Position numbers and translations under genes: made by a program. This document shows, piece by piece, positions 19,394 through 36,334 of a DNA stretch of 36,334 bases. How positions within the stretch are numbered: the stretch's first letter is position 1; the number at the start of each line of letters is the position of its first letter. The DNA lies in contig CAITVK010000047.1 in the NCBI GenBank assembly GCA_903895845.1, positions 1 to 36,334 on the forward strand, read 5' to 3'. This DNA is from an uncultured Chitinophagaceae bacterium. Its GTDB lineage: Bacteria; Bacteroidota; Bacteroidia; Chitinophagales; Chitinophagaceae. The notes beneath the pieces were generated by a model. That model was given only the letters and a program-made list of their open reading frames with translations. It did no database searches and was not told where the DNA came from.

Positions 19394-21286
19394 ATGCATT
19401 ACGTAACGGTAGAAGGCTTAACGAAGAGCTATGGTATCAATCCATTATTCAAAAACATCACTTTTCACATTAACGAAGGAGAGAAAATTGCACTGATTGC
19501 CAGAAATGGCGTTGGTAAATCTACTTTATTACGCATATTGGCTGGTCAGGAGGTGCAAGAATCGGGTAAGGTGCATATCAGTAAGGGCGTTTCGGTGGCC
19601 CTGTTTGAACAAGATCCTAAGTTTGATGAAGATAAAACTGTATTAGAGAACATCTTTACTAGTAATCACCCTATTATGAGTGTGATGCGCCAATATGAGG
19701 CTGCATTGGATGCGGATGATGCGGAAATGATTACGGAATGTATTGGTAAGATTGATGAACTGGGGGCATGGGATTATGAAGCCAAAGTGCATCAGATATT
19801 GGGGAAACTAAACATTCATCATTTACAAAATAAAGTGAGCAGCCTGAGTGGTGGTCAGCGTAAGCGAGCTGCATTGGCTAAGACATTGATTGATATTGGC
19901 TTTGAACACCAACACACGCTTTTAATGATGGATGAACCTACCAATCACCTGGATGTAGGGATGATTGAATGGCTGGAGCATTACCTTGGCTCAGAGAATA
20001 TTACCTTATTGCTGGTAACGCATGACAGATACTTTCTGGATGCCGTTTGTACGGAGATATGGGAGCTTGAACGAGAGAATATTTATACTTATGTAGGCGA
20101 TTATGAGAACTACATGGAGAAGAAAGCTGCCCGTATTGAAAGTGAACTGGCAAGTATAGACAAAGCTAAAAATCAATACAGAAAGGAACTGGAGTGGATG
20201 CGCAAACAGCCTAAAGCGAGAAGTACTAAAAGCCGTAGCCGTCAGGATAATTTTTATGAAGTGGAGGCACGTGCCAAACAAAAGATTGAGGATGCACAAG
20301 TGCAATTGCAGGTGAAGATGAGCAGGATAGGAGGGAAGGTGTTGGAAGTGAAGAAGGTGTACAAGAGCTTTGGTGATTTGCCGATATTAAAAGGGTTTGA
20401 TTACACGTTCAGTAAGGGGGAGCGCATTGGGGTAATTGGAAAGAATGGGGTAGGGAAGTCTACCTTTCTGAATATCTTACAAGGAATAGAGAAACCGGAT
20501 AGTGGCAAAATAAATGTGGGAGACACCATCATATTTGGCAATTTTTCTCAGCAAGGGCTCAAGATTAAAGAGAACCTGCGGGTAATAGAATATGTGAAGA
20601 CGTTTGCCGAGAACTTTCCTTTGGCGGATGGAAGTAGCTTGAGTGCTGCACAGTTTCTGGAGTTGTTCTTGTTTACGCCTGAGAAGCAATATACCTATCT
20701 TAATTCGTTGAGTGGGGGAGAAAAGAAGCGTCTGCAACTGCTTACTATCTTATTTACTAACCCTAACTTTTTGATACTGGATGAGCCTACCAATGACTTG
20801 GATTTGCCTACCCTTGCGGTGCTAGAAAACTTCTTGAATGACTATCAGGGTTGCGTATTGATTGTGAGCCATGACCGATATTTTATGGATAGGCTGGTGG
20901 ATCATTTGTTTGTGTTTGAAGGCAATGGGGAGGTAAGGGATTTTCCGGGTAACTATACCCAATATCGATTGGAAGAGAAGGAAAAGGAGAAACGAGGTTC
21001 TTCGCTAAATGCAAAGCCTGAACCCGTAGTTGCAAAGGTTGTTGAAACACCGAAGCCTGTGGAGAAGCAAGGAAGGAAATTGTCTTTTAAGGAGAAGCAA
21101 GAGTTAGAAAACATAGAGAAGGCTATTGCTACGTTAGAAGCTGAAAAGGTGACGATTGCTGATAAGATGAGTGATGGTGACCTGCCCTTTGAAGAAATTA
21201 AAAAACTAAGTGACAGACTGATAGCGATTGACAATGAATTGGGGATGAAGGAGTTTAGATGGCTGGAACTGAGTGAGGGAGCGTAG
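19394..21286 (+). CDS. ABC-F family ATPase (Uup/ribosome-associated type)
   Basis: 630 residues, two ABC cassettes in one chain and no membrane segments. Cassette 1: IARNGVGKSTLL (first Walker A position Ala, as often in Bacteroidota members), LSGGQRKRAAL signature, LLMMDEPTNHLD Walker B. An Arg/Lys-rich linker with RKQPKARSTKSRSR follows near residue 274. Cassette 2: VIGKNGVGKST, LSGGEKKRLQL, FLILDEPTNDLD. The C-terminal ~75 residues are a charged coiled coil (FKEKQELENIEKAIATLEAE), as in Uup. ABC-F proteins act on ribosomes or DNA-linked processes, not transport. It is monocistronic, with a -7-like box at its start and a strong terminator after it. Confidence 0.92.
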   Translation: MHYVTVEGLTKSYGINPLFKNITFHINEGEKIALIARNGVGKSTLLRILAGQEVQESGKVHISKGVSVALFEQDPKFDEDKTVLENIFTSNHPIMSVMRQYEAALDADDAEMITECIGKIDELGAWDYEAKVHQILGKLNIHHLQNKVSSLSGGQRKRAALAKTLIDIGFEHQHTLLMMDEPTNHLDVGMIEWLEHYLGSENITLLLVTHDRYFLDAVCTEIWELERENIYTYVGDYENYMEKKAARIESELASIDKAKNQYRKELEWMRKQPKARSTKSRSRQDNFYEVEARAKQKIEDAQVQLQVKMSRIGGKVLEVKKVYKSFGDLPILKGFDYTFSKGERIGVIGKNGVGKSTFLNILQGIEKPDSGKINVGDTIIFGNFSQQGLKIKENLRVIEYVKTFAENFPLADGSSLSAAQFLELFLFTPEKQYTYLNSLSGGEKKRLQLLTILFTNPNFLILDEPTNDLDLPTLAVLENFLNDYQGCVLIVSHDRYFMDRLVDHLFVFEGNGEVRDFPGNYTQYRLEEKEKEKRGSSLNAKPEPVVAKVVETPKPVEKQGRKLSFKEKQELENIEKAIATLEAEKVTIADKMSDGDLPFEEIKKLSDRLIAIDNELGMKEFRWLELSEGA

Positions 21287-21319
21287 ATAATAGATATAAG
21301 ATAATAGATAATAGATAGT
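21284..21319 (+). repeat. AT-rich microrepeat built on TAGATAATAGATA
   Basis: The stop codon of the ABC-F gene opens a run of imperfect TAGATAATA / GATAAGA / TAGATA words, with stops in several frames. It may act as a cluster of stop codons or be a dispersed low-complexity repeat. It ends 12 bp before the terminator. Confidence 0.5.
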
Positions 21320-21331
21320 AGTGAGTTAAAG

Positions 21332-21619: not shown

Positions 21620-22636
21620 TTAAAGTTTTGTCAATAGTTCATTATTTTGAACATAAATAACAAAATATGGATTGTCGGTTTGTACTCGTTTAATTATGAC
21701 AAAAAATGGTTTGTCAAATACCATTTTCTTTGCTTTAATCTGAATTGGTTCTGATGTACTGTCCGCAGCAATCATTCTTGATTCACTTTCAACTACAGCT
21801 CCATTTTCATTTAGAATAAAGCCAGTACGCTGATATGCTGTTTCTACAGTGTATTTTTTGTCTTTCGCATCAAATTCCTGTCCTTCTATTTTGCTGTAGT
21901 TTGTTTCGAGATTAAACTTAATAGTTGGGATAGAAAAAGTATCAGTTTCATTTAAACTGTATTTCCAAGATTCTTTTACATTCTTCATTTCATTTTTTCC
22001 GGCTTCAATCAAATTGTTTGTTTTCTTAATTGCATCTGAAAGATTTTTAATCCCTGAAATCCCTTTTATTAACAAGATTTCATGCTGGTTATCCTTTGGG
22101 GTCAATTTCAATATAAAATGGTAGTCATCTTTGTATGATAGGATTTCAGTAAAATTTGCAATCTTATAATCATACGATTGCATACCAAAAGCTACAACTC
22201 TTGCTTTACTAAATAAAATGGGGCTGTCTAGCTTTTGAAGTTTCGAAGAGAAGGGTAAAGACTTATTAAAAAATGCTTTTGCAATTATTTTATCATCCAC
22301 AATTTCTGCATCTGCAGAATATTCGTCTTCCATCAACGCATTCTTGTAAGAAATGGACTGATTGAGCAATAAAAATTCACTAGAACTACTTTTTGTCAAA
22401 CTTATGGGCGAATTAAGTTTTTCTATCAAGCTCTTCCAAGCATATTGAAATGCTGTTGCATAAATTACATTTTTGTTGTCATTGATAGGACATTCTAAAG
22501 TCGTAACAAATTCAGTCCTTTGTAGCTTACTAATATTTGTTACTTCTGGCAAGTCATCCCAACCCTGTTGGTTTGTTCTTTTGCAAGAAATGCAAACTAT
22601 TGAAATTAGAAAAATAGCTGTAATAGTTATTCTCAT
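21620..22636 (-). CDS. Divergent serpin-like lipoprotein
   Basis: 338 residues. The export signal has Cys18 in VCISCKR, an acceptable lipobox. No family is certain, but the C-terminal third follows serpin order: FSIPTIKFNLETNYSKI (234-250) like serpin strand 6A, AYQRTGFILNENGAVVESES (267-286) like the hinge before the reactive loop, and FDKPFFVIIKRVQTDNPYFV (307-326) like the closing strands. ATAFQYAWKSLIEKL (60-74) could be helix A. The loop between hinge and closing strands is about 30 residues, longer than usual, and the total is shorter than typical 370-400. If it is a serpin it would inhibit a protease in the envelope. The alternative is an unrelated lipoprotein. Inverted GTTAGCA boxes flank the gene. 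Confidence 0.5.
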   Translation of the reverse strand: MRITITAIFLISIVCISCKRTNQQGWDDLPEVTNISKLQRTEFVTTLECPINDNKNVIYATAFQYAWKSLIEKLNSPISLTKSSSSEFLLLNQSISYKNALMEDEYSADAEIVDDKIIAKAFFNKSLPFSSKLQKLDSPILFSKARVVAFGMQSYDYKIANFTEILSYKDDYHFILKLTPKDNQHEILLIKGISGIKNLSDAIKKTNNLIEAGKNEMKNVKESWKYSLNETDTFSIPTIKFNLETNYSKIEGQEFDAKDKKYTVETAYQRTGFILNENGAVVESESRMIAADSTSEPIQIKAKKMVFDKPFFVIIKRVQTDNPYFVIYVQNNELLTKL

Positions 22637-23094
22637 GAAATATTGTTAATTAATCACTGCTAACACTTAATGCAGGCATTCTTTAAACCAAAAACTAGTG
22701 TATTTTTACTATTCAATCAGTAAAAAAAGTTGCAGCCGCTTACTAGTAGCACAAATACAAAACTAAGGGAAACTATACCTCCAAATTCAAACTATCCAAG
22801 GGGGTAGAAACATCAATAAGTCTTTGCTGTGCAACTACCTCACAACATAGAGATGTCTATTATATCTCATTAGCCTTTTTATAGCTTCTTCACTTTACTT
22901 TTCTATCAATGTTTTTATAGTAACAATACCAATGGCATTTCTACTGCTTTTTGGTGTTTACTTTCAATAATTACCTCCAAATATTAAATAAACCTTAAAA
23001 TGCGTGTTATTTGTCTCTTTATTGCGCCGAAAATAAAGTATTACCAATAAACCTTTTTTAAAAGCCTACATTACATCCAATAAAATAACAAACG
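22637..23094. other. AT-rich divergent intergenic region before the 21-bp array
   Basis: This 458-bp gap between the minus-strand serpin-like gene and the array block holds a promoter-like pair for the minus gene (22758-22785). No TAnnTTTG element was found facing the array. An AAGGGGGTAGAAAC stretch at about 22798 is the only notable GC-rich word. No gene or RNA was recognised. Confidence 0.4.
22758..22785 (-). promoter_or_regulatory. Promoter for the serpin-like lipoprotein
   Basis: On the minus strand TTTG (complement of 22782-22785), 16 bases, TAGTTTTG (complement of 22758-22765), close to the Bacteroidota consensus. It lies about 120 bp before the start codon, leaving a long leader. Confidence 0.45.
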
Positions 23095-23247
23095 ATGTTT
23101 TACTTGTCTTCTTCCAAAAAATGCACCTATGCCATCCTGGTGGTTACATTTCTGGCAAAGAGACTTGCCGAAGTCGTTTCTCATATCCTCACCCTCTTCT
23201 CGGGTACCAAATATCTTGGTCAATCTTCTGCCCATCCCCCTGTTTAG
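23095..23247 (+). CDS. Possible 50-residue membrane-type leader ORF before the array
   Basis: ATG at 23095 opens MFYLSSSKKCTYAILVVTFL and continues as a basic-hydrophobic, signal-like peptide ending AHPPV and a TAG stop at 23245-23247. An A-rich stretch precedes the ATG. The same frame continues past the stop into heptads of the type VLSAYKG/LLSAYKG throughout the repeat array to a TAA at 23566-23568. So this could be a short peptide, a decayed gene whose repeat part is cut off by one stop, or chance. No family was recognised, and confidence is low. Confidence 0.25.
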   Translation: MFYLSSSKKCTYAILVVTFLAKRLAEVVSHILTLFSGTKYLGQSSAHPPV

Positions 23248-23260
23248 TTTTTCAAAAGCG

Positions 23261-23540
23261 TTCTGAGTGCATACAAAGGTCTTCTGAGTGCATACAAAGG
23301 CGTTCTGAGTGCATTCAAAGGTCTTCTGAGTGCATACAAAGGTCTTCTGAGTGCATACAAAGGTCTTCTGAGTGCATACAAAGGCGTTCTGAGTGCATAC
23401 AAAGGTCTTCTGAGTGCATACAAAGGTCTTCTGAGTGCATACAAAGGCGTTCTGAGTGCATACAAAGGCGTTCTGAGTGTATACAAAGGTGTTCTGAGTG
23501 CATACAAAGGTGTTCTGAGTGCATACAAAGGCTTTCTGAG
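23261..23540 (+). repeat. 21-bp tandem repeat array, 13 full units, with a two-base variable step
   Basis: Thirteen head-to-tail 21-bp units start at 23261 and recur every 21 bp to 23533, followed by a partial TTCTGAG (23534-23540). The first 19 bases are TTCTGAGTGCATACAAAGG in 11 of 13 units; unit 3 has one A-to-T change and unit 11 one C-to-T. The last two bases vary by unit: TC, CG, TC, TC, TC, CG, TC, TC, CG, CG, TG, TG, CT. A decayed unit (TTCAAAAGCG) precedes the array and another follows it. There are no spacers, so it is not CRISPR. Long open frames on both strands are a by-product of the multiple-of-three period. It lies 57 bp upstream of the 232-residue gene and would be in its leader or promoter region. 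Confidence 0.95.
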
Positions 23541-23596
23541 GATAGTTTCCAAAGAAGAGTGTAATTAATAATCAAATAATTTTAAAAATAAATAAA

Positions 23597-24295
23597 ATGA
23601 AGAACTTCATTGTTAAAGTAAGTAGAACATTAATCAACAGATTTACAGCAGCTAAGATTGTTGATCTGGTATTGGCAATGAGTGCTGCCATATTTGGTCT
23701 GCCGCTTGTGTTTACAGGCACAAAACCATTTACAGCTGCTGAGATATTGGTATTAACGGATGACTATAGTGCAAAAAAAGCGGCTTACAAAGTAGGAGGC
23801 TTGCTTAGTAAACCCGCATATTTAGCGTCTAAGTTGGCATTGTTAAATTGTATTCTGGCATTTGCAGATTATGTTGATAGTATTGCCAAGGGAAGTTTGG
23901 AAATCATTGCACAGAGTACACTCCCCAATAATATCGTTATCGATTATGCCGCATTGATAGTTGCTGGCGCCAAACCAAAAGGCGTTTCTGGTAAAATTGG
24001 TATTGCCCTGCAATTAATTACCAATTGTATTGCTTTTGCTCCAAAAGCTGGCTACACGGCTATCCTAAGCGAAGGTATGCCGCTGATGGCAGGCTTTAGT
24101 ATTGGTAGTAATGGACAAATACATATTCCGCTGGGAACTACCAACAGGATATTTATCAACTCTACTGCTACCCGCAGAAAATTATTTAATAACCTGATGC
24201 CTAGTACAACCTATTACTTGTACTATATACAAATGATTGGCGATGTTGTGAGCCAAATGAGCGCACCTATTACTGTAGGAACTGGGGTAGCTTAA
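23597..24295 (+). CDS. Helical plus FN3-like small protein of unknown function, next to the 21-bp array
   Basis: 232 residues. Residues 1-45 are basic then hydrophobic (KIVDLVLAMSAAIFGLPLVF); residues 46-130 look helical and Ala/Leu-rich, with LLNCILAFADYVDSIAKGS (82-100) reminiscent of an LxxYV..A.G motif in small Bacteroidota proteins that pair a helical domain with an FN3-like domain. Residues 131-230 look beta, with LMPSTTYYLYYIQMIGDVVS (200-219) and SQMSAPITVG as in FN3 C-terminal strands. No cleavable signal peptide is evident. Start: A-rich leader, ATG 57 bp after the array. I know no function for this family. The array lies in its upstream region, which makes co-function or regulation by the array plausible but unproven. 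Confidence 0.8.
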   Translation: MKNFIVKVSRTLINRFTAAKIVDLVLAMSAAIFGLPLVFTGTKPFTAAEILVLTDDYSAKKAAYKVGGLLSKPAYLASKLALLNCILAFADYVDSIAKGSLEIIAQSTLPNNIVIDYAALIVAGAKPKGVSGKIGIALQLITNCIAFAPKAGYTAILSEGMPLMAGFSIGSNGQIHIPLGTTNRIFINSTATRRKLFNNLMPSTTYYLYYIQMIGDVVSQMSAPITVGTGVA

Positions 24296-24380
24296 TGAAC
24301 TATGAAATATGAGAGTTTAAGATAGTAGTTTAAGCATATAGAATCTTTTGAAGTGACTTGATTTTTTGTATTGGGAATTA

Positions 24381-24547
24381 AGAAGCTGTTTGAATTAATT
24401 ATTTGATATTCTTTATGGAATTTAATTTTGACTGCAACTGCGTTAAATTTTTTTCCTTAGGCGTTGGACTATGGCTGCAAAATTTGCCTTGTCACAATCA
24501 AATAAATTCTCATAAATAATTCTAAACAATTAACTCAAACAGCTTCT
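24381..24547. mobile_element. MITE-like element with 24-bp terminal inverted repeats
   Basis: AGAAGCTGTTTGAATTAATT plus ATTT (24381-24404) is inverted at 24524-24547 with 22 of 24 positions matching. The 167-bp element has no ORF, and its interior contains CTGCAACTGCGTTAAATTTT and a GGACTATGGCTGCAAAATTT stretch resembling, from memory, ends of Bacteroidota insertion sequences. A clear target duplication was not found. It sits between the array partner gene and the adhesin, ending 17 bp before the adhesin ATG, and carries an outward promoter. Confidence 0.75.
24402..24430 (+). promoter_or_regulatory. Near-consensus promoter inside the MITE, facing the adhesin
   Basis: TTTG (24402-24405), exactly 17 bases, TAATTTTG (24423-24430). 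This matches the Bacteroidota -33/-7 consensus in sequence and spacing, the best match in the window. Transcription would start near 24436, about 130 bp before the adhesin start. Confidence 0.6.
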
Positions 24548-24564
24548 AACTAAAATGTACGATT

Positions 24565-27500
24565 ATGAAATTGTTTCTGACAAATCATCGTTATTGCCGT
24601 GTTCTTGTAAGAAAAAATATTACGGCATTTATTAGTATTACCGTCACAGCCCGTCCGCCATGTGGCAGTTGCAATCGCCTGGTTTTACTATTATTATTGT
24701 GTAGTAGCATCGGCGTAGGATGGGGACAAACAACCTACAACCTCGTTACCTCCACCGCAGGATTATTATCGGGAGCCAATTACCTCATCGTCAATACCAC
24801 CACCAACGGCACAGGCTATGCTTTGGGCTACCAAAATACCAGTAACCGCCCAAGTGCCACTATTACTGTCGCCTCCAACTCTATCAGCGCCACGGCTGCA
24901 ATTACTAGTGCAGATGTAACAAACCCATATCAGATAACGCTCGGCGGCACTACTGGTGCATGGACACTCTACGACGCCGTTACCCCCGGCTATTTATATG
25001 CAGCTAGCAACAGTAGTGCAATGCTTAAAAGTAATGCAGCAGTAAAAAACTGGACTATCTCCTTTCTGTCAAACGCAGCTATACTTACCTGTACCACAGG
25101 CTCATATTCATACAATACGCTTCAGTTTAATAATACGAGTAAATTATTCTCAAGTTATCAAAGTACACAGTCTAGTGTTTATTTGTATCAGGCGGCTTCG
25201 CCTAATTATTATTGGAATGGAAGTAATACAACTGCCTTTAATAACACTTGGAACACCACAGGCACGTATTGGTCTCAACCAACTGCCGCAACTACTCTAA
25301 ATGCGATTTGGCCAACAAGTGCAGGAATTTACAATGCCAACTTCAATAGTGCTGCGGCGGCAACCACCATCACTATACCTGGCACTATTGCATACACCCC
25401 AAACATTGTAAATATTGGTACAAGCAATTATACGTTTGCAACTACTGGAGCTGTAGCAGGAACTTTATCATCGCCTATTAACCTGAATGCAAATGGATTG
25501 ACGCTTGCGCCGATAAGCACTGCAAATCTTATTTTGCCCGGAGTTATCGGTGGCACAGGTACACTGGCTATCAACGGGGGCGGAACAAGTATTGCAAATG
25601 GGGGGACGCTACAGTTGCAGGGGGCAAATACGTATTCGGGTGCAACAACGGTGGGCGCTTCTGTCACCAATGCCGCCATCCTGCAACTAGATGCAGGAGG
25701 AACAATTGCTACCTCATCTTTAACTATTAACAATAACAGTCAATTATATCTCAATACATCGGGCGTCACCTATTCCAATACAGGAACACTCACATTAAAT
25801 GGTAATGGAAACAGTGCGAATTTGGGTGCAATAAAGCTTGTTAATCCATCGGTGGGAACTGTGTGGAATGGCGCAATTACGCTGGCTAGTAATTCGGGTA
25901 TTGCTGTAGCAGGTGCTACAAGTACTTTCAAGTTGGGAGGGGTGCTTTCGATAGGTGCAAATACACTAACCAAAACTGGTGTAGGCACTTTGATACTGAA
26001 TAATACCAACAATACAGGCAGTGCAGGTAGTAGCATTGCGGCAACAAGTGGGACGATTCAGTTGGGTGCAGCTAATGTTGTCCCCGATTTTACAGCAATA
26101 GCAGTGTCGGGTGCAACGTTTGATGTGAATGGGTTTGGCGAAACAATAGGTTCTGTTTCAGGCTCTGGAACAATAACCAATTCAACAGCTACACCTTCGG
26201 TTTTGACGATTGCAGCAGATAATTTAAGTCAGTCTTTTACTGGAATTATTGCAGGAGGAAGTAATCTGAGTATCATCAAAACGGGTACAGGCACACAGAC
26301 ACTTAGCGGTACACAAACCTACACAGGAGGTATGACCGTTAACAATGGTTACCTCGCTATTACTACAGAAAATAATTTGATTGGAACTACGGGAAATGTA
26401 GTCCTGAATGGGGGAGGAGTGGCAACCACTAGTGCGTTAAACATCAACAGCAGCAGGGGATATAGCTTGGGAAGCAATGGAGGCTATCTGGATGCAACCA
26501 ATGGTACAATTACACTGACTGATGCGTTAGTATTTGCAGGGGCCGCTACCAATAGTACTTTGAATGTGATGGGTGGCACCGTGCAGATGGCTTCCAGCAA
26601 TAGAATACCAATTAGCGGTTCGGGTATGGCGTTGAATATGAATAATACTGCCAATGCAATACTAGATATTGCTGGAACCAATCAAACATTTGCTGCATTA
26701 AGTGGGGGAGGCGTTGCAGGTGGAAATGTCATTAATTCAACCGGAACGGCTACGCTCACTGTAGGAAATACAACGGGAAATGCCTCGTCTACATTTGCAG
26801 GAATCATAGGAGGAGGTAGTATTAATCTGGTGAAACAAGCTTCAGGCACGTTGACCCTTTCTGGGGTAAATACATTTACAGGAACAACAACCATTAATGC
26901 AGGGACACTTGCCATAACCGGAAGCCTGTCAACAGGAGATGCAGTAACTATTGCTGCTGGAGGAACACTGGCTGGTACAGGAACAGTGGCAGGAAGTGTA
27001 GCAGTTTATGGGGCCATCAGCCCTAATGCAGTTGGTACAATAGGAACATTAACCACAGGGAATCTTACACTTGAGCCCAGCGGCTTTTGCACGATTGATA
27101 TAAACAATGTTACGGGTGTTAGCGGAACAAACTGGGATAAAATAGTAATGGGAGCATTAACGAATAGTGCAACAGCTGCGTCTAAGTTTACTATTGCCGT
27201 CAACGGAACAATTGCAGGATTCGACATTAACACTATGTCCAGTTGGATTGTAGGAACCTATACTGGCACAGCTCCATCAACAGACAATATTCTCTTCACT
27301 ACAAGTGGTACAACTGCGGGATTAGCTGTATATTTTTCGGTGTCATTTACAGGGAACAATATTACCCTTGTATATACGCCTAGCTACTGCGCCACACCAA
27401 CTGCACAAGCAACCAATCTGATAGCTGGAACGGCTACAAGTCTAAGCGTTCCTGTCTCCTTCACAGGGGCAACAAGTAATCCTGACGGCTATCTGGTAAT

Positions 27501-30500
27501 TCGGACGAATACCAATATACCTCCCTCAAATCCTGTAGATGCCAGTTCTTATGTTGTTGGGACGACTGCTCTAGGTGGCTTTGTAGAGTCTGCCAGTAAT
27601 TTAACTTTTTTTACTTCTTCCGGATTATCTCCCAACACTTCTTATTGGTATTGGGTATTCTCTTTTAATAATACAAACTGTTTGGGAGGGCCCAAATACT
27701 GCACAACGACTCCTTTGATGGGAACTGTAACGACTGCTACTCCAACTATTTTGGTTAGTCAGTTGGCATTGAATGGACTGAATTATAACGTTGGAAGTGG
27801 ACCATCGGGCAGTCAGGTTTATAATCTAAGTGCTAGTAATCTGTCAACCGCAAGCGGAAATATTACAATCACTGGGACTACTGATTATGAAGTATCAAAA
27901 GACAATAGCTCCTTTAGTGCATCTCAGACAGTTTTATTTGCAGGTTATTCGTTGGCATCAACACCTGTTTATGTCAGGTTGAAAACAGGACTTGCACAAG
28001 GAAGTTATCTTGGAGAAACAATTGCCAACAGTGGGGGCGGTGCAGCTACTGTAAACGTTACTAGCAATGGTACTGTGAGTTCGGCACAAGCAGGAATAGC
28101 TTTAGGGCAATGGGATATGAGTAATCTTTCGGGTACAATAGACACGCCATTTTTAACTACAAGCCCGTCACCAGCAGGTGTTATTATCAGTGGGCTGACA
28201 AGAGGAAATAATGTAGGAACGTCCGCAGGTATATTTAGAGGATGGGGAGGAATAGGTTGGTCAACCAATACAACAGATCCAGGGGTAGCCACTGGAGTTA
28301 ACGTCTATTTTACCGTACAAGTTGCAACAGGTTATGTGGCTTCTATTAGTAGTATTCCACAATTTAGTTACCGACGTTCTGCTACAGGGCCATCAACGGG
28401 TTCTTTGTATTACCAGATTAATACAGGAACTTATGCTTTAGTTGGTACAAGTGGGTCGCTGAGTTTTTCGAGTTCAAGTTCTAGTGGAGCCAATATACTT
28501 CCGATTGATTTAAGTGGAATAGTAGCTTTACAAAACCTCCCAGGGGGTACTATTGTAACATTTATGATTGTCCCCTTTAATGCGTATAGTGGAGCAGGTT
28601 CCTGGTATATATATGATCAGGCAGGTAGTACTGCGAGTGATTTTACATTGTATGGCACAACAGGCGGTTTCCCAGTGATGACAAGTGCTGTTGCTGCCAA
28701 TTCTATTTTTGGAACGGCAACAAGCTTTAGCTTAACAGCAAGCAATAGCCCTTCTAGCTTTAGTGCAAGCGGATTGCCTACAGGAATGGCACTTAACATA
28801 GCTACAGGTGTGATATCAATACTTTCTACTACTGCCATTGGAAGTTATTCCATCACTACCAGTGCTACAAATAGTTACGGTACGTCTTCAACTACTAGTT
28901 TAACATATACTGTAAATGCCAATATTAGTAATTGGGTAGGGACTACGGCCGATTATAATACAGCTTCCAATTGGGCAGATAATGTAGTGCCCGCTTCTGG
29001 TGCAGCGATTGCAATTCCATCAGGAGTGAATTATTCCCCTGTCTTGGGTACGAATGCGATTGTGGGCAATTTGGAAATTGGAGCTGGAACAGTTCTGGAT
29101 TTGAATGGACAAACTTTGACCATTAATGGCGTAGTTTCTGGAAGTGGGACTATAACAAGCAATGAATCATCTGATATTATTCTTACAGGTGCGGCAGGTA
29201 CATTGTATTTTACATCAGCGAGTAATTCATTGAAGAATCTTACTCTTAATACAAATGCAACTGCTACTCTTGGGACACAATTAAATATAGTGGGAGGTTT
29301 TGTGCCAGGTACCGTTTCAATCGAAAGCGGTGCAACTTTAAATACAGGGAATAATCTAGTTATTAAATCAGACTTAAATGGAACAGGAAGGGTTGCACAA
29401 GTAGTTGGAAATATTACAGGTAATGTGACCATGGAAAGGTATATCACAGCTAAAGCCGCGAGAAAATATAGTTACATCGGTAGTTCCGTTGTATCGAGTG
29501 TAAGAAACAGTTGGCAACAGCAAATATATATTTCAGGCACTGGTTCGGGTGGTGTCCCTTGTGGATTAACCAGTGGGGATGGTGGGAGTACGGATAAATA
29601 CAACAGTAATGGCTTTGATGCAACTCAAAATAGTTCGCCTAGTATGTACACCTATAGCCCTGCGCTTATAAATGGGAGCAGATATGTAGGAATTGCGAAT
29701 ACAGAATTAACGAATCTTTCTCCAGGAACTGGTTATATATTGAATATTAGAGGGAATAGAAATAGTACTACTGTTTCTTGTGCCAACCAATTAGAAACTG
29801 GTAGTCCCACTGCTCCTGAAGAAGTAATTTTGAGTGCGACAGGTTCAGTAACTACAGGTGATGTGTCCGTTGCTTTAAATGACCTTGCCATTCATAAGTA
29901 CACTTTGTTGGCTAATCCATATCCTAGTCAGATAAGTTATGCTGCTTTTCAAGCTAGCAATGCTAATATTAATAATAAAATGTGGACATATAGTCCTTTT
30001 GGAAACGGTAACTACAGTACTTATTCTGCTGGTGTAATTGCAAACGGGGCTATTGGCTATGATAATACAAATGGAGACTACATTGCCAGTGGAGAGGCTT
30101 TCTTTGTACAAGCGAATACAAATGGGACTGTTCAATTTCATGAAACCGACAAGATAAACAGTACGCTCCCTAATACTCAATACTTCGGCGTAGTTAATAC
30201 TTCATTAGTTAGGATTGGATTGAGGAATAGTTCAAACAATCTTTTGGATGAGGTTGTGGTGCGGTTTAATAATCAGGGAACAAGTATGTATAGTGCTGCA
30301 TGGGATGCCGAATCATTAAGTTCGGCCAGTCAATCCCTATCCATTATCAAACAAGGAAAGGCGTTGGCAATTGCTACATTTCCCGATTCAATCACTTCAG
30401 ATACAATACAGTTAAATGTAGGCAGTAATGTTACAGGTTCGTATCAATTATCCTTTAGCGATTTTGATGATCTTGGAACAGTTGCGTTAACAGATAGATT

Positions 30501-31158
30501 CTTGAATACAAATCAGAATGTGCGAAGCAATACTAGTTACAATTTTAATGTTACAAGTGACAGTGCAAGCAAAGGAAGAAATAGATTTTATGCAGTTATT
30601 AGTGGAATCAGACCTTTGCCAGTGAACTTTAGCAATATTTCAATAATTCAGGATGGTAAGAGTGTAAATGTGAACTGGCATATATCAAACGAAGCAAATA
30701 TTGAAAGCTATGTGGTAGAGAAAAGTAATAATGGCAATTCATTAGTAGTGGTTGGTAGGATAAAGTCTATTGGGATAGGCAATTATACAGTAGTGGATGC
30801 AAATATCCCCACCAACATAAGCAAGCTTTACTATAGGATTAAAGCAATTGGTACTGATGGTACATGTATATATAGCCCAATTGCAATGCTTCAATTGAAG
30901 CCTGCTGATTGTTTGTTAACTATTTATCCAAATCCTGTTAAAGAGGAACTGAAGTTTGTGTATAGTAGTTCAGAATTACCGATAATTACGCTATGGATAA
31001 CTTCTGCCATGGGTGTAGAGATGATGCGGGTTGATCATCTGGAAGTTAAAGGCAATAGGGTATCTGTAAATATTGAAGGTTTAGCAAAGGGCGTTTATAT
31101 CCTCGAGGTGTTGGATAAAAGCGGCAATAAGCTACGCAAGAAATTTATTAAAGCGTAA
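24565..31158 (+). CDS. Giant T9SS-exported repeat adhesin (autotransporter-associated beta-strand repeats)
   Basis: 2197 residues, probably secreted by type IX secretion. A long basic N-terminus leads into LVLLLLLCSSIGVGWGQ, a signal peptide with an unusually long n-region. Residues ~300-900 hold repeated beta-helix motifs of the autotransporter-associated repeat type (GTGTLILNN near 470, GTQTLSGTQTYTGG near 573, GTLTLSGVNTFTGTTT near 762). Then come an FN3-like part (~940-1055), a TTDYEVSKDNSSFS beta domain (~1068-1170), a putative Ig segment GLPTGMALNIATGVIS (~1400), a second beta-rich part starting NWVGTTADYNTASNW (~1455), and a type A sorting domain from LTIYPNPVKEE (~2117) to the end. 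Role: surface adhesion or matrix. It is probably driven by the MITE-borne promoter. Strongly Thr/Ser/Asn/Gly-rich. Confidence 0.9.
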   Translation: MKLFLTNHRYCRVLVRKNITAFISITVTARPPCGSCNRLVLLLLLCSSIGVGWGQTTYNLVTSTAGLLSGANYLIVNTTTNGTGYALGYQNTSNRPSATITVASNSISATAAITSADVTNPYQITLGGTTGAWTLYDAVTPGYLYAASNSSAMLKSNAAVKNWTISFLSNAAILTCTTGSYSYNTLQFNNTSKLFSSYQSTQSSVYLYQAASPNYYWNGSNTTAFNNTWNTTGTYWSQPTAATTLNAIWPTSAGIYNANFNSAAAATTITIPGTIAYTPNIVNIGTSNYTFATTGAVAGTLSSPINLNANGLTLAPISTANLILPGVIGGTGTLAINGGGTSIANGGTLQLQGANTYSGATTVGASVTNAAILQLDAGGTIATSSLTINNNSQLYLNTSGVTYSNTGTLTLNGNGNSANLGAIKLVNPSVGTVWNGAITLASNSGIAVAGATSTFKLGGVLSIGANTLTKTGVGTLILNNTNNTGSAGSSIAATSGTIQLGAANVVPDFTAIAVSGATFDVNGFGETIGSVSGSGTITNSTATPSVLTIAADNLSQSFTGIIAGGSNLSIIKTGTGTQTLSGTQTYTGGMTVNNGYLAITTENNLIGTTGNVVLNGGGVATTSALNINSSRGYSLGSNGGYLDATNGTITLTDALVFAGAATNSTLNVMGGTVQMASSNRIPISGSGMALNMNNTANAILDIAGTNQTFAALSGGGVAGGNVINSTGTATLTVGNTTGNASSTFAGIIGGGSINLVKQASGTLTLSGVNTFTGTTTINAGTLAITGSLSTGDAVTIAAGGTLAGTGTVAGSVAVYGAISPNAVGTIGTLTTGNLTLEPSGFCTIDINNVTGVSGTNWDKIVMGALTNSATAASKFTIAVNGTIAGFDINTMSSWIVGTYTGTAPSTDNILFTTSGTTAGLAVYFSVSFTGNNITLVYTPSYCATPTAQATNLIAGTATSLSVPVSFTGATSNPDGYLVIRTNTNIPPSNPVDASSYVVGTTALGGFVESASNLTFFTSSGLSPNTSYWYWVFSFNNTNCLGGPKYCTTTPLMGTVTTATPTILVSQLALNGLNYNVGSGPSGSQVYNLSASNLSTASGNITITGTTDYEVSKDNSSFSASQTVLFAGYSLASTPVYVRLKTGLAQGSYLGETIANSGGGAATVNVTSNGTVSSAQAGIALGQWDMSNLSGTIDTPFLTTSPSPAGVIISGLTRGNNVGTSAGIFRGWGGIGWSTNTTDPGVATGVNVYFTVQVATGYVASISSIPQFSYRRSATGPSTGSLYYQINTGTYALVGTSGSLSFSSSSSSGANILPIDLSGIVALQNLPGGTIVTFMIVPFNAYSGAGSWYIYDQAGSTASDFTLYGTTGGFPVMTSAVAANSIFGTATSFSLTASNSPSSFSASGLPTGMALNIATGVISILSTTAIGSYSITTSATNSYGTSSTTSLTYTVNANISNWVGTTADYNTASNWADNVVPASGAAIAIPSGVNYSPVLGTNAIVGNLEIGAGTVLDLNGQTLTINGVVSGSGTITSNESSDIILTGAAGTLYFTSASNSLKNLTLNTNATATLGTQLNIVGGFVPGTVSIESGATLNTGNNLVIKSDLNGTGRVAQVVGNITGNVTMERYITAKAARKYSYIGSSVVSSVRNSWQQQIYISGTGSGGVPCGLTSGDGGSTDKYNSNGFDATQNSSPSMYTYSPALINGSRYVGIANTELTNLSPGTGYILNIRGNRNSTTVSCANQLETGSPTAPEEVILSATGSVTTGDVSVALNDLAIHKYTLLANPYPSQISYAAFQASNANINNKMWTYSPFGNGNYSTYSAGVIANGAIGYDNTNGDYIASGEAFFVQANTNGTVQFHETDKINSTLPNTQYFGVVNTSLVRIGLRNSSNNLLDEVVVRFNNQGTSMYSAAWDAESLSSASQSLSIIKQGKALAIATFPDSITSDTIQLNVGSNVTGSYQLSFSDFDDLGTVALTDRFLNTNQNVRSNTSYNFNVTSDSASKGRNRFYAVISGIRPLPVNFSNISIIQDGKSVNVNWHISNEANIESYVVEKSNNGNSLVVVGRIKSIGIGNYTVVDANIPTNISKLYYRIKAIGTDGTCIYSPIAMLQLKPADCLLTIYPNPVKEELKFVYSSSELPIITLWITSAMGVEMMRVDHLEVKGNRVSVNIEGLAKGVYILEVLDKSGNKLRKKFIKA

Positions 31159-34589: not shown

Positions 34590-35999
34590 TTATTGCAAAA
34601 TGGTCAAGATAACATCATATACTATTTCCAGTTCTTCCTCCGTAATGCAATAGGGGGGCATGATATATACCGTATTGCCTAGCGGACGCATATAAACCCC
34701 CTCATCCAATGCCTTTTGGGTGATATTTCCTGCAATATTATTCAGGTATTCGTCTTTTCCCTCCGCTATTTCGAAGGCGATGATGGTTCCTAGTGTCCGG
34801 ATGTTTTTTATTGTGAGCCGTGAGTTGTAAGTTGTGAGTCGTTCTGCAAAGAGTTTGTTTTGTTCCGTTATCCATTCTATCTGATTGAAGCAATCTTCCA
34901 GCATCAATAAGTCCAGACTGGCCAATGCGGCGGTACAAGCCAATGGATTTGCTGTAAAAGAATGCCCATGAAAGAAAGTTTTTAGCTTGTCATCGCTCAA
35001 ATATGCCTGATAGATTCTATCTGTGCAAGCTGTTACACCCAATGCCATTGTTCCTCCCGTAATCCCCTTGCTAAGGCAGATAATATCGGGACGTTCCTCC
35101 ATATATTCACTTGCAAACAGCTTTCCTGTTCGTCCAAAACCTGTCATTACCTCATCGGCAATGCAAATAATGTCGTGTTGTTTCACTGTTTTCAGCAATT
35201 CATTCATCCAGTGGGCATCATACATCCTCATGCCACCGGCACCTTGCACCAATGGCTCATAAATAAAAGCTGCTATTGCTGTTCCTTCTTTGTTAATGGT
35301 ATTTTTAAGCTCCTCAATATTGGTAGCCGAAGGCGTATCAATAAAAAGTACTTCAAAAAGTTTGTCATGAAACGCCAATGTAAATACACTCCTGTCACTC
35401 ACGCTCATTGCGCCAAACGTATCCCCGTGATAGGCATCATTGAAGGCCAAAATCTTGTTGCGCTTTCCGTTTGCCGCTTTCCGTTTACCGTCATCCGTTG
35501 ACCGATTACCGCTATCTAAGCGTTCTTCGGTCAACGGTTTTCTGCTTTCGGTTAACGGTAAACGGTTAACGGTCGACTGTTCACGGTTGACGGTTGACGG
35601 TTGGCTGTCTTCCCTTCCATTCCACCAATATTGCAAAGACATCTTCAAAGCAACCTCTGTTGAGGTACTTCCGTTGTCGCTATAGAATATTTTTGAGAAG
35701 TTGTTGGGAAGATTTGGCAACAAACGCTCAGCCAAAGCAACAGCAGGCTCATGTGTGAACCCGGCAAATATCACTTGCTCCAGTGTCATGGCTTGTTTGT
35801 ACAGCTTTTCGGCAATATAGGGGTGCGCATGACCATGAATCGTAACCCACCAGCTGCTTATTGCATCAATATACTCATTTCCCGTCTCATCAAAGAGCAA
35901 AGTCCCCTTTCCTTTGACGATAGGTATTGGAGGCAGCCTATTTTTTTGGTGTGTAAACGGATGCCATATCACTTCATAATCTCTTTCCTGCAATGTCAT
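34590..35999 (-). CDS. bioA: Adenosylmethionine-8-amino-7-oxononanoate aminotransferase with an in-frame insertion
   Basis: 469 residues, about 45-50 longer than usual BioA. PLP aminotransferase of biotin synthesis. HPFTHQKNRLPPIPI at the start, SSWWVTIHGHAHPYI, NGSTSTEVALKMSLQYW, AYHGDTFGAMSVSDR, IADEVMTGFGRTG and CLSKGITGG with the PLP Lys311 are all present. Between YWWNGRE and NKILAFNDAYHG, residues ~130-180 (DSQPSTVNREQSTVN...) are low-complexity and are encoded by a palindromic repeat (35460-35612). A second short repeat lies in TTYNSRLTIK (34811-34840). Both preserve the reading frame and all catalytic residues, so the enzyme is probably active. A -7-like box lies 4 bp upstream. Operon with anmK. 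Confidence 0.95.
   Translation of the reverse strand: MTLQERDYEVIWHPFTHQKNRLPPIPIVKGKGTLLFDETGNEYIDAISSWWVTIHGHAHPYIAEKLYKQAMTLEQVIFAGFTHEPAVALAERLLPNLPNNFSKIFYSDNGSTSTEVALKMSLQYWWNGREDSQPSTVNREQSTVNRLPLTESRKPLTEERLDSGNRSTDDGKRKAANGKRNKILAFNDAYHGDTFGAMSVSDRSVFTLAFHDKLFEVLFIDTPSATNIEELKNTINKEGTAIAAFIYEPLVQGAGGMRMYDAHWMNELLKTVKQHDIICIADEVMTGFGRTGKLFASEYMEERPDIICLSKGITGGTMALGVTACTDRIYQAYLSDDKLKTFFHGHSFTANPLACTAALASLDLLMLEDCFNQIEWITEQNKLFAERLTTYNSRLTIKNIRTLGTIIAFEIAEGKDEYLNNIAGNITQKALDEGVYMRPLGNTVYIMPPYCITEEELEIVYDVILTILQ
34811..34840 (-). repeat. Short GTGAG/TTGTAAG-type repeat inside bioA
   Basis: TTGTGAGCCGTGAGTTGTAA and the following GTTGTGAG words on the + strand repeat a degenerate ten-base unit within the bioA frame, coding for TTYNSRLTIK. 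Similar ACTCACAACTCAC words are common low-complexity intergenic repeats. The reading frame is preserved. Confidence 0.4.
35460..35612 (-). repeat. Palindromic repeat element inserted in frame in bioA
   Basis: About 153 bp, 51 codons, made of repeated CCGTCAACCGT / CCGTTTACCGT words in one half and CGGTCAACGG / ACGGTAAACGG words in the other. CCGTTTACCGT and ACGGTAAACGG are exact reverse complements, so the element can fold into a hairpin. It codes for a Ser/Thr/Asn/Arg-rich loop absent from ordinary BioA proteins. It behaves like a mobile palindromic element tolerated in a protein, as described in Rickettsia. Confidence 0.8.
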
Positions 36000-36011: not shown

Positions 36012-36262
36012 TTGGAGGAAGTGATTTTATGGGAAATAGATTAGCGGAAGAGGGCGAAAGTTGCAAGGGGTAAGGCGTAAGCAATAAACCACTGGGTTAA
36101 TTGAAACAATCAACAACCATCAAAAGATTGTTAACCTCAATCTAATTCAATTGTACACTTGCTCTTAGAAGCTCCTTTCTATCCATAATCTACTAAAATT
36201 AATTATACTATCTGACCTAAAAATCCGCTTATCTACATTAATACCAAAAAGTTTCACGTTTA
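36012..36262. other. AT-rich intergenic stretch before the second array
   Basis: No gene or RNA recognised. The last 21 bases (36242-36262) align weakly with the array unit (about 12 of 21) and could be a decayed first unit. No TTTG was found at the right distance for the bioA -33 element. Confidence 0.35.
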
Positions 36263-36334
36263 TATATAAAAGTTGGATAAACATATATAAATCTTAGACG
36301 GAGATATATAAAAGCTGGAGATTTATATATAAAA
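36263..36334 (+). repeat. Degenerate 21-bp periodic array, cut by the window edge
   Basis: TATATAAA begins at 36263, 36284, 36305 and 36326, exactly every 21 bp. Units one and three share TATATAAAAG[T/C]TGGA; unit two is more decayed (TATATAAATCTTAGACGG). The fourth is truncated by the window end, so the array may continue. Period and the ATAYAAARG-like core match the larger array at 23261-23540. Confidence 0.75.

Follow-up and report, generated by a model that had tools for sequence, protein, structure and literature searches.

The tandem array studied here may be a DNA recognition platform with phased sites, belonging to a gene-plus-satellite system with a putative binder. We give this reading a probability of about 0.38. 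The array lies in a window of 36,334 nucleotides (the whole stretch of DNA that was analysed) from an uncultured Chitinophagaceae bacterium. The small genes and repeat blocks described below suggest an undescribed kind of gene-plus-repeat system.

The array and its surroundings

The initial annotation had described thirteen spacerless 21-bp units just upstream of a gene for a 232-residue protein, and this description was confirmed. TRF found a tandem array on the plus strand at positions 23261-23540, with a period of 21 bp, 13.3 copies, 93% matches and a score of 462. Its lag-21 match score was 223, whereas none of 20 shuffled versions of this 600-bp segment exceeded 11.6. The units abut without the unique spacers of a CRISPR, as the annotation had also stated. 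The array is followed by a 3' tail (23541-23579), which is partly common to the solo array G000:C98:48534, and by the orphan-family gene of the 232-aa protein P0002 (23597-24295, plus strand), whose start lies 57 bp from the array. When the units of the window array were pooled with those of its two solo copies, column information (34 units) revealed a core TTCTGAGTGCnTAC and a more variable remainder.

A conserved small ORF of 50 aa (23095-23247, plus strand; C-terminal end ...GTKYLGQSSAHPPV) precedes the array, and its stop codon ends 13 bp 5' of the first unit. Hence, small ORF, array and orphan gene follow each other on one strand. A profile search of the collected loci found related intact peptides at 14 loci, including the window and all from the same genus, and a broken form of the peptide at two more. 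Differences between the 14 intact loci, calculated over the last 15 codons, were 0.19, 0.14 and 0.57 at the three codon positions, which shows that the small ORF is coding. Some other clades have different short conserved sequences 5' of their arrays. The gene 5' of the window array had one weak, stop-interrupted match, in one of the 12 other genomes of the genus. There was no LytTR among the six neighbouring genes of the array, and the gene 3' of the array had no Pfam match; at this scope, no result favoured the LytTR-type platform that the annotation had offered as one option.

Directly 3' of the 232-aa gene, positions 24565-31158 encode a protein of 2197 aa that contains passenger-associated repeats as well as a secretion C-terminal sorting domain. 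Another period-21 array (36262-36334; 3.5 copies of ATATATAAAAGTTGGACAAAC), cut by the contig end, lies upstream of a minus-strand aminotransferase gene. Short heptamer tandem repeats (7/14 bp) occur at 21284-21321 and 35549-35603 of the window and on contigs C98, C114 and C121; with 17 entries in the 422 kb of the own genome that were scanned, they form a separate dispersed repeat class.

The 232-aa protein and its family

P0002 had no match in Pfam or NCBIfam, and a single match in PHROGs (E = 0.29). An AlphaFold2 model based on a seven-sequence alignment (mean pLDDT 83.6, pTM 0.50) predicted long helices at residues 18-34 and 47-97, followed by a C-terminal beta sandwich; at this pTM, it is uncertain how the two halves are placed relative to each other. 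The best Foldseek matches of the sandwich were FN3 domains (E = 1.7e-5), with a weak sequence match to FN3 under the Pfam cut-off. The C-terminal half is therefore predicted to have an FN3 fold, in agreement with the helical and FN3-like protein of an uncharacterised family proposed by the annotation. Sequence and structure comparisons recognised no DNA-binding domain or fold in P0002.

The profile of this family (A1) matched 38 of 394 genomes of the bacterial family, in 12 of 101 genera, although many of these matches were weak or partial. In a sample of the phylum it matched three of 395 genomes, the own genome included. Within the genus, 10 of 13 genomes had matches, with 12 copies in the own genome. 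Relatives of P0002 were mostly found in Chitinophagaceae; the six named matches were five contigs of Chitinophagaceae MAGs and one Bacteroidia MAG. We rejected a phage or plasmid origin because P0002 had no homolog in viral contigs, phages or plasmids. A search of viral contigs with the alignment A3 likewise gave no homologs.

Arrays upstream of A1 genes

Arrays recur upstream of the homologs of P0002. Within a fixed 650 bp, 69 of the 92 A1 loci had a tandem array upstream, 67 of them of the 21-bp type (a class whose bands were fixed after the first results were in). Downstream, only nine of 91 loci had an array, five of them of the 21-type, and several of these represent multiples of a 7-bp repeat. 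To obtain a base rate, genes of at least 100 aa were examined in four contigs of the own genome; 45 of these 330 genes had an array, a count in which an array between divergent genes is included twice. Fisher tests of the upstream count gave 6e-29 against the genes of the own genome and 3e-20 against the downstream side. With a different criterion (score of at least 20 within 900 bp), arrays were present at 72 of the 93 loci that had at least 150 bp upstream.

In a later batch, 16 of 19 places had an array upstream, all of the 21-type, and one of 18 had an array downstream; this batch was not blind, as its places were chosen with the rule already known. In the own genome, an array is present at all ten A1 members whose upstream sequence extends to 300 bp or more, and the other two members have too little upstream sequence. 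Conversely, 23 of the 92 loci had no array inside the 650 bp upstream. The arrays of the A1 loci had a median length of 200 bp (10th-90th percentile 127-264), consisted of about 4 to 17 units of 21 bp, and ended at a median distance of 180 bp from the start codon. The Bacteroidetes promoter motif TAnnTTTG was not enriched 5' of the arrays (8 occurrences vs 7.7 in shuffles) or in the interval from array to gene (11 vs 8.7).

These counts were obtained from 95 loci. The family search produced at least 132 places, with at most seven candidates scored per genome; 90 of these were used, and three, one and one loci were added from other searches. The requirement of at least 150 bp upstream kept 93 loci; 92 had at least 300 bp upstream and 91 at least 300 bp downstream. 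Locus L011 was dropped as a chance or decayed match. The later batch consisted of 20 places (15 from the family search and five from a genus search), of which 19 were usable upstream and 18 downstream.

A second protein family

Some arrays of the own genome sit 5' of other orphan genes. One such family, A5, is not alignable to A1 (hhalign probability 0.4%); it was found in 12 of 59 relatives, of which 11 belong to the genus. From 110 matches, 30 loci were counted, 28 of which had enough upstream sequence. Arrays of the 21-type lay upstream of 22 of these 28 genes and downstream of none of the 30. The units of A5 arrays are often palindromic. Further orphan genes lie behind arrays at L172 (2004-2930) and L187 (18021-18977), and may represent more partner families; one of them ends in a carboxypeptidase-regulatory-like domain, and the other has no family match above the cut-off.

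Fixed period and changing unit

The period of the arrays is fixed, whereas their unit changes. Among 72 comparable arrays, every best lag was a multiple of 20-22 bp (lags of 15-99 were tried), and the period per unit was 20.86 +/- 0.37 bp. In contrast, A1 arrays were mostly unrelated between loci. Similarity at E <= 1e-3 was found in three of 12 pairs whose proteins were at least 70% identical, in none of 125 pairs at 40-70% and in three of 2141 pairs below 40%, so that it is lost below about 70%. For A5 the corresponding values were 10 of 39 pairs at 70% or more, one of six at 60-70% and one of 186 below 60%, and the arrays of two A5 proteins that are 92% identical were no longer matched by BLAST. 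Hence, arrays are passed on together with their gene but soon rewritten. The exact two-unit pattern of the window array occurred in the own genome only, in a sample of 294 genomes of the bacterial family.

Within the unit, information was clustered (p < 0.05) in five of the seven array families tested, with gene-linked and solo copies pooled and with units selected by likeness to a seed; the exceptions were the L009 and L008 families. Neutral growth of repeats hardly accounts for arrays whose sequence is almost unconstrained, whose pitch stays at two helical turns and which recur beside genes of mutually dissimilar protein families.

A proposed platform of phased sites

We propose that the array of the window, with its gene, is the gene-linked member of a gene-plus-satellite system and acts as DNA. 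Each unit would consist of a better-kept core of about 11-17 bp and a looser remainder, so that the cores lie two helical turns apart. Such spacing would allow one face of the helix to be occupied by some six to thirteen molecules of a single sequence-specific protein. Most simply, the binder would be the product of the locus itself, exerting self-control in cis and acting at solo arrays in trans. The solo arrays would be dispersed copies of the array and some of its flank, minus the gene. The computations show the pairing, the constant period with its changing unit, the core in most array families tested, the dyad excess in many arrays, the solo arrays and, in one sample, the co-occurrence of arrays and genes; that a protein of the locus binds and regulates, and the way in which solo arrays arise, are inferred. 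A wider form of this proposal seems somewhat doubtful to us: at least two unalignable orphan families would keep an upstream block of phased sites, with its pitch and length preserved and its sequence rewritten faster than the protein, and this block would seed solo arrays in the chromosome that are read in trans by the product of the locus.

The strongest objections to a platform are the absence of a recognised DNA-binding fold in P0002, and the much faster turnover of the units than of the proteins, which is awkward for strict cognate recognition. Moreover, the window array has no dyad symmetry (p = 0.66), a quarter of the A1 loci (the 23 of 92 mentioned above) are arrayless, and about 20 of the 30 arrays in the own genome lack a gene of this kind.

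Solo arrays in the own genome

The own genome comprises 4.0 Mb in 138 contigs. The unit of the window array forms two more arrays, both on contig C98 (G000:C98:48534-48787 and 66954-67134), and the neighbours of both are genes unrelated to the 232-aa protein. In a blastn comparison, the window locus and solo locus L002 were 78.5% identical over 312 bp, ending at window position 23579. Hence, the window unit is not tied to one gene; it belongs to a small family of dispersed repeats, one copy of which is gene-linked. The pairing of array and gene in the initial annotation was to be abandoned if most homologs lacked arrays and the unit also stood beside unrelated genes; the pairing held for most homologs, whereas exclusive association of the window unit with its gene did not. 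These two arrays, the 50-aa ORF and the abundance of arrays in the own genome go beyond that annotation, the interpretation of which is partly supported overall.

In 422 kb of the own genome we found 30 arrays of this kind, about one per 14 kb. They remained from 32 arrays of at least 80 bp after exclusion of periods 33 and 153, and one of the 30 has a period of 66. Three were in convergent, 11 in divergent and 16 in co-directional settings, compared with 50, 49 and 247 of 346 gene pairs (simple ORF calls). By our reading, about 20 do not adjoin an A1- or A5-type gene. Because most arrays stand beside ordinary genes at this density, we rejected the idea that arrays mark the A1 family alone. 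When ten gene-linked arrays of the own genome were used as queries, nine had related arrays elsewhere, the exception being C121:78549. No A1- or A5-family protein was found near those related arrays in up to 1.5 kb read per side, whereas the gene-linked arrays have one; several solo arrays end at contig ends, where the gene may have been lost.

The main rival explanation is a selfish interspersed minisatellite of BrickBuilt or MITE-like character. Array, leader and tail would have colonised intergenic regions with the help of borrowed machinery, with the orphan genes as cargo or a preferred landing site. We consider this unlikely, yet it has several results in its favour. Solo arrays may retain the flanks of the gene-linked copy without the gene, as in the L008 family (440 bp at 90% identity), and 29 of the 30 arrays in the own genome lie outside any long ORF. 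Inverted ends scoring at least 12 were in excess, in 10 of these 30 arrays versus 7.8% of flank-swapped controls and in eight of 72 arrays of another set versus 4.7%; the array of L010 (G000:C74, near 69461-69650) has 18-bp inverted ends with a score of 18. However, most arrays have no strong inverted ends, and those of the window array all scored below 12.5, outside the best 30. A selfish element would also not be expected to keep to the upstream side as the arrays of A1 (69/92 vs 9/91) and A5 (22/28 vs 0/30) do, or to be bracketed by a conserved small ORF and a gene. Furthermore, the related arrays of some close homologs mostly have the same orientation, which argues for inheritance with the gene rather than fresh insertion.

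The solo arrays L201 and L200 (G000:C57 and C135), both of the L009 family, mix L009 units with units like those of L007. At L016 (G000:C72, 3445-3643), a 21-bp array of 9.5 units is in frame with a short stretch similar to the C terminus of the family (E = 0.35); this may be a chance match or a gene-linked locus that has decayed.

DNA or RNA

The initial annotation had also raised the option of a transcribed repetitive RNA. The array would then be part of an mRNA between small ORF and gene and form a row of RNA elements, an arrangement that accords with the common orientation of small ORF, array and gene at 14 loci of the genus. Folding energies were indeed below those of column-permuted arrays (mean z = -1.30, n = 72). 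Yet, the minus strand was equally stable (mean z = -1.32; difference p = 0.57), and mismatches in the dyads showed no clear excess of G-T over A-C (79 vs 60, p = 0.13). An excess of dyad symmetry over column-permuted arrays (p <= 0.05) occurs in many arrays: it was found in 21 of 72, 13 of 22 and 6 of 30 arrays of three sets that overlap a little. The equal stability of the strands and the lack of a clear G-T excess speak for a property of duplex DNA more than for one of RNA. In addition, two turns of B-DNA per period are not expected of an RNA, and a search of Rfam with window positions 22600-24600 gave nothing at the gathering score; the only matches were four miRNA families (E = 0.15-0.57), far under it. 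An RNA is thus improbable. Elsewhere, a Flavo-1 RNA at L186 (619-696) and a DUF805b RNA at L171 (3933-3968) both exceeded the gathering score.

Copy number and coding capacity

Still less credit goes to a copy-number switch, in which gain and loss of units tune the gene and two-turn units hold upstream elements in phase. The variation in array length between loci (about 4 to 17 units) and the constant two-turn period are compatible with such a switch. Against it, the units of several arrays are just about 60-75% alike (TRF), which makes frequent slippage unlikely, and the solo arrays have no such gene beside them that could be tuned.

Finally, a coding heptapeptide repeat is very improbable, and the annotation had already set aside an ordinary coding repeat: frames through the window array are open on both strands, but the variable columns of its unit (11, 15 and 18-21) fall mostly on first and second codon positions of the ORF through the array (23121-23564, plus strand; frame as assigned by us) and the best lags of 24 of the 72 comparable sister arrays are not divisible by three, so that we judged this ORF spurious.

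Comparison with known systems

Plasmid iterons and centromere-like arrays consist of direct repeats about two helical turns apart, located upstream of the gene of their binder, with a sequence that varies between replicons. Unlike these, the arrays studied here are present more than once per genome, on chromosome-type contigs; neither a Rep nor a partition protein was recognised, and P0002 had no plasmid match. The neisserial NIME/dRS3 and the MIRU-VNTR are interspersed blocks of short repeats between genes; to our knowledge, neither is linked to a protein family in a comparable manner or has a single pitch common to unrelated units. We know of no system in which arrays keep their pitch, change their unit freely and accompany several families of orphan proteins.

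The closest known systems are BrickBuilt and REPIN/RAYT, and neither fits fully. The BrickBuilt MITE of Porphyromonas gingivalis is described in the cited portion of its report as spacerless tandem repeats of 23 nt in 19 dispersed intergenic copies, which are imperfect, keep or lose leader and tail flanks, and have small inverted-repeat ends as part of the element (PMC4596501). 464/PgRS elements, whose repeats are 41 nt long, and 22-nt repeats in strain W83 are also listed there (PMC4596501). As far as this text goes, BrickBuilt closely resembles our solo arrays, which likewise are dispersed, intergenic, spacerless tandem units of about 20-23 bp in Bacteroidota. It differs in its inverted ends, as strong ones are lacking in the window array. 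Moreover, the cited portion describes one unit per element family in one species and mentions no partner gene family (PMC4596501), whereas here one genome has many unit families, several with a gene-linked copy.

In REPIN/RAYT, according to the part of the source cited here, the partner is a tyrosine transposase and the unit is a REP doublet, with tandem arrays spaced 72-112 bp (PMC3116915). On that description, both systems have dispersed repeats outside genes that are linked to one particular gene, as well as family-specific sequences and a palindromic tendency, and the solo arrays of the own genome carry the sequence of the partner locus in the same way. In contrast to REPIN/RAYT as described there, we found tandem arrays of 20-21 bp units and a protein of helices and FN3 without a Pfam match, not a transposase.

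A literature search, covering mostly sources other than subscription papers and preprints, found no gene-linked array of this kind. With more weight on the solo arrays, the system could count as a variant of interspersed minisatellites. Should the arrays prove to be protein platforms, nature would have supplied many unrelated operator arrays of identical geometry, in which the turnover of DNA specificity could be studied in a system that persists. Should they be selfish satellites, they would illustrate how satellite DNA in bacteria becomes linked to a gene. Each genome offers several sequence-distinct replicates, and hence the question is directly testable.

Co-occurrence across genomes

Arrays and A1 genes co-occurred in one sample of genomes. 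Twenty genomes taken as A1-carrying had 15 arrays in 353 kb, compared with none in 334 kb of 20 genomes without A1. One of the former (G721) had no A1 match; among the 15 arrays, four were A1-linked on contigs chosen for a homolog, and two were A5-linked (G285:C10 and G247:C214). Within the genus, three genomes with A1 had eight arrays in 270 kb, versus two arrays in 173 kb of genomes without A1, both of them in one repeat-rich genome. More specifically, G721 and G775 had no arrays in 64 kb, and G776 had two (lags 81 and 84) in 109 kb. The within-genus comparison is not decisive, and in part it cuts against the reading of a platform with its gene. The sampled stretches of G776 (L326, L327 and L330) also contained 11 other tandem arrays, with repeats of 7, 8, 14, 38, 47 bp and longer.
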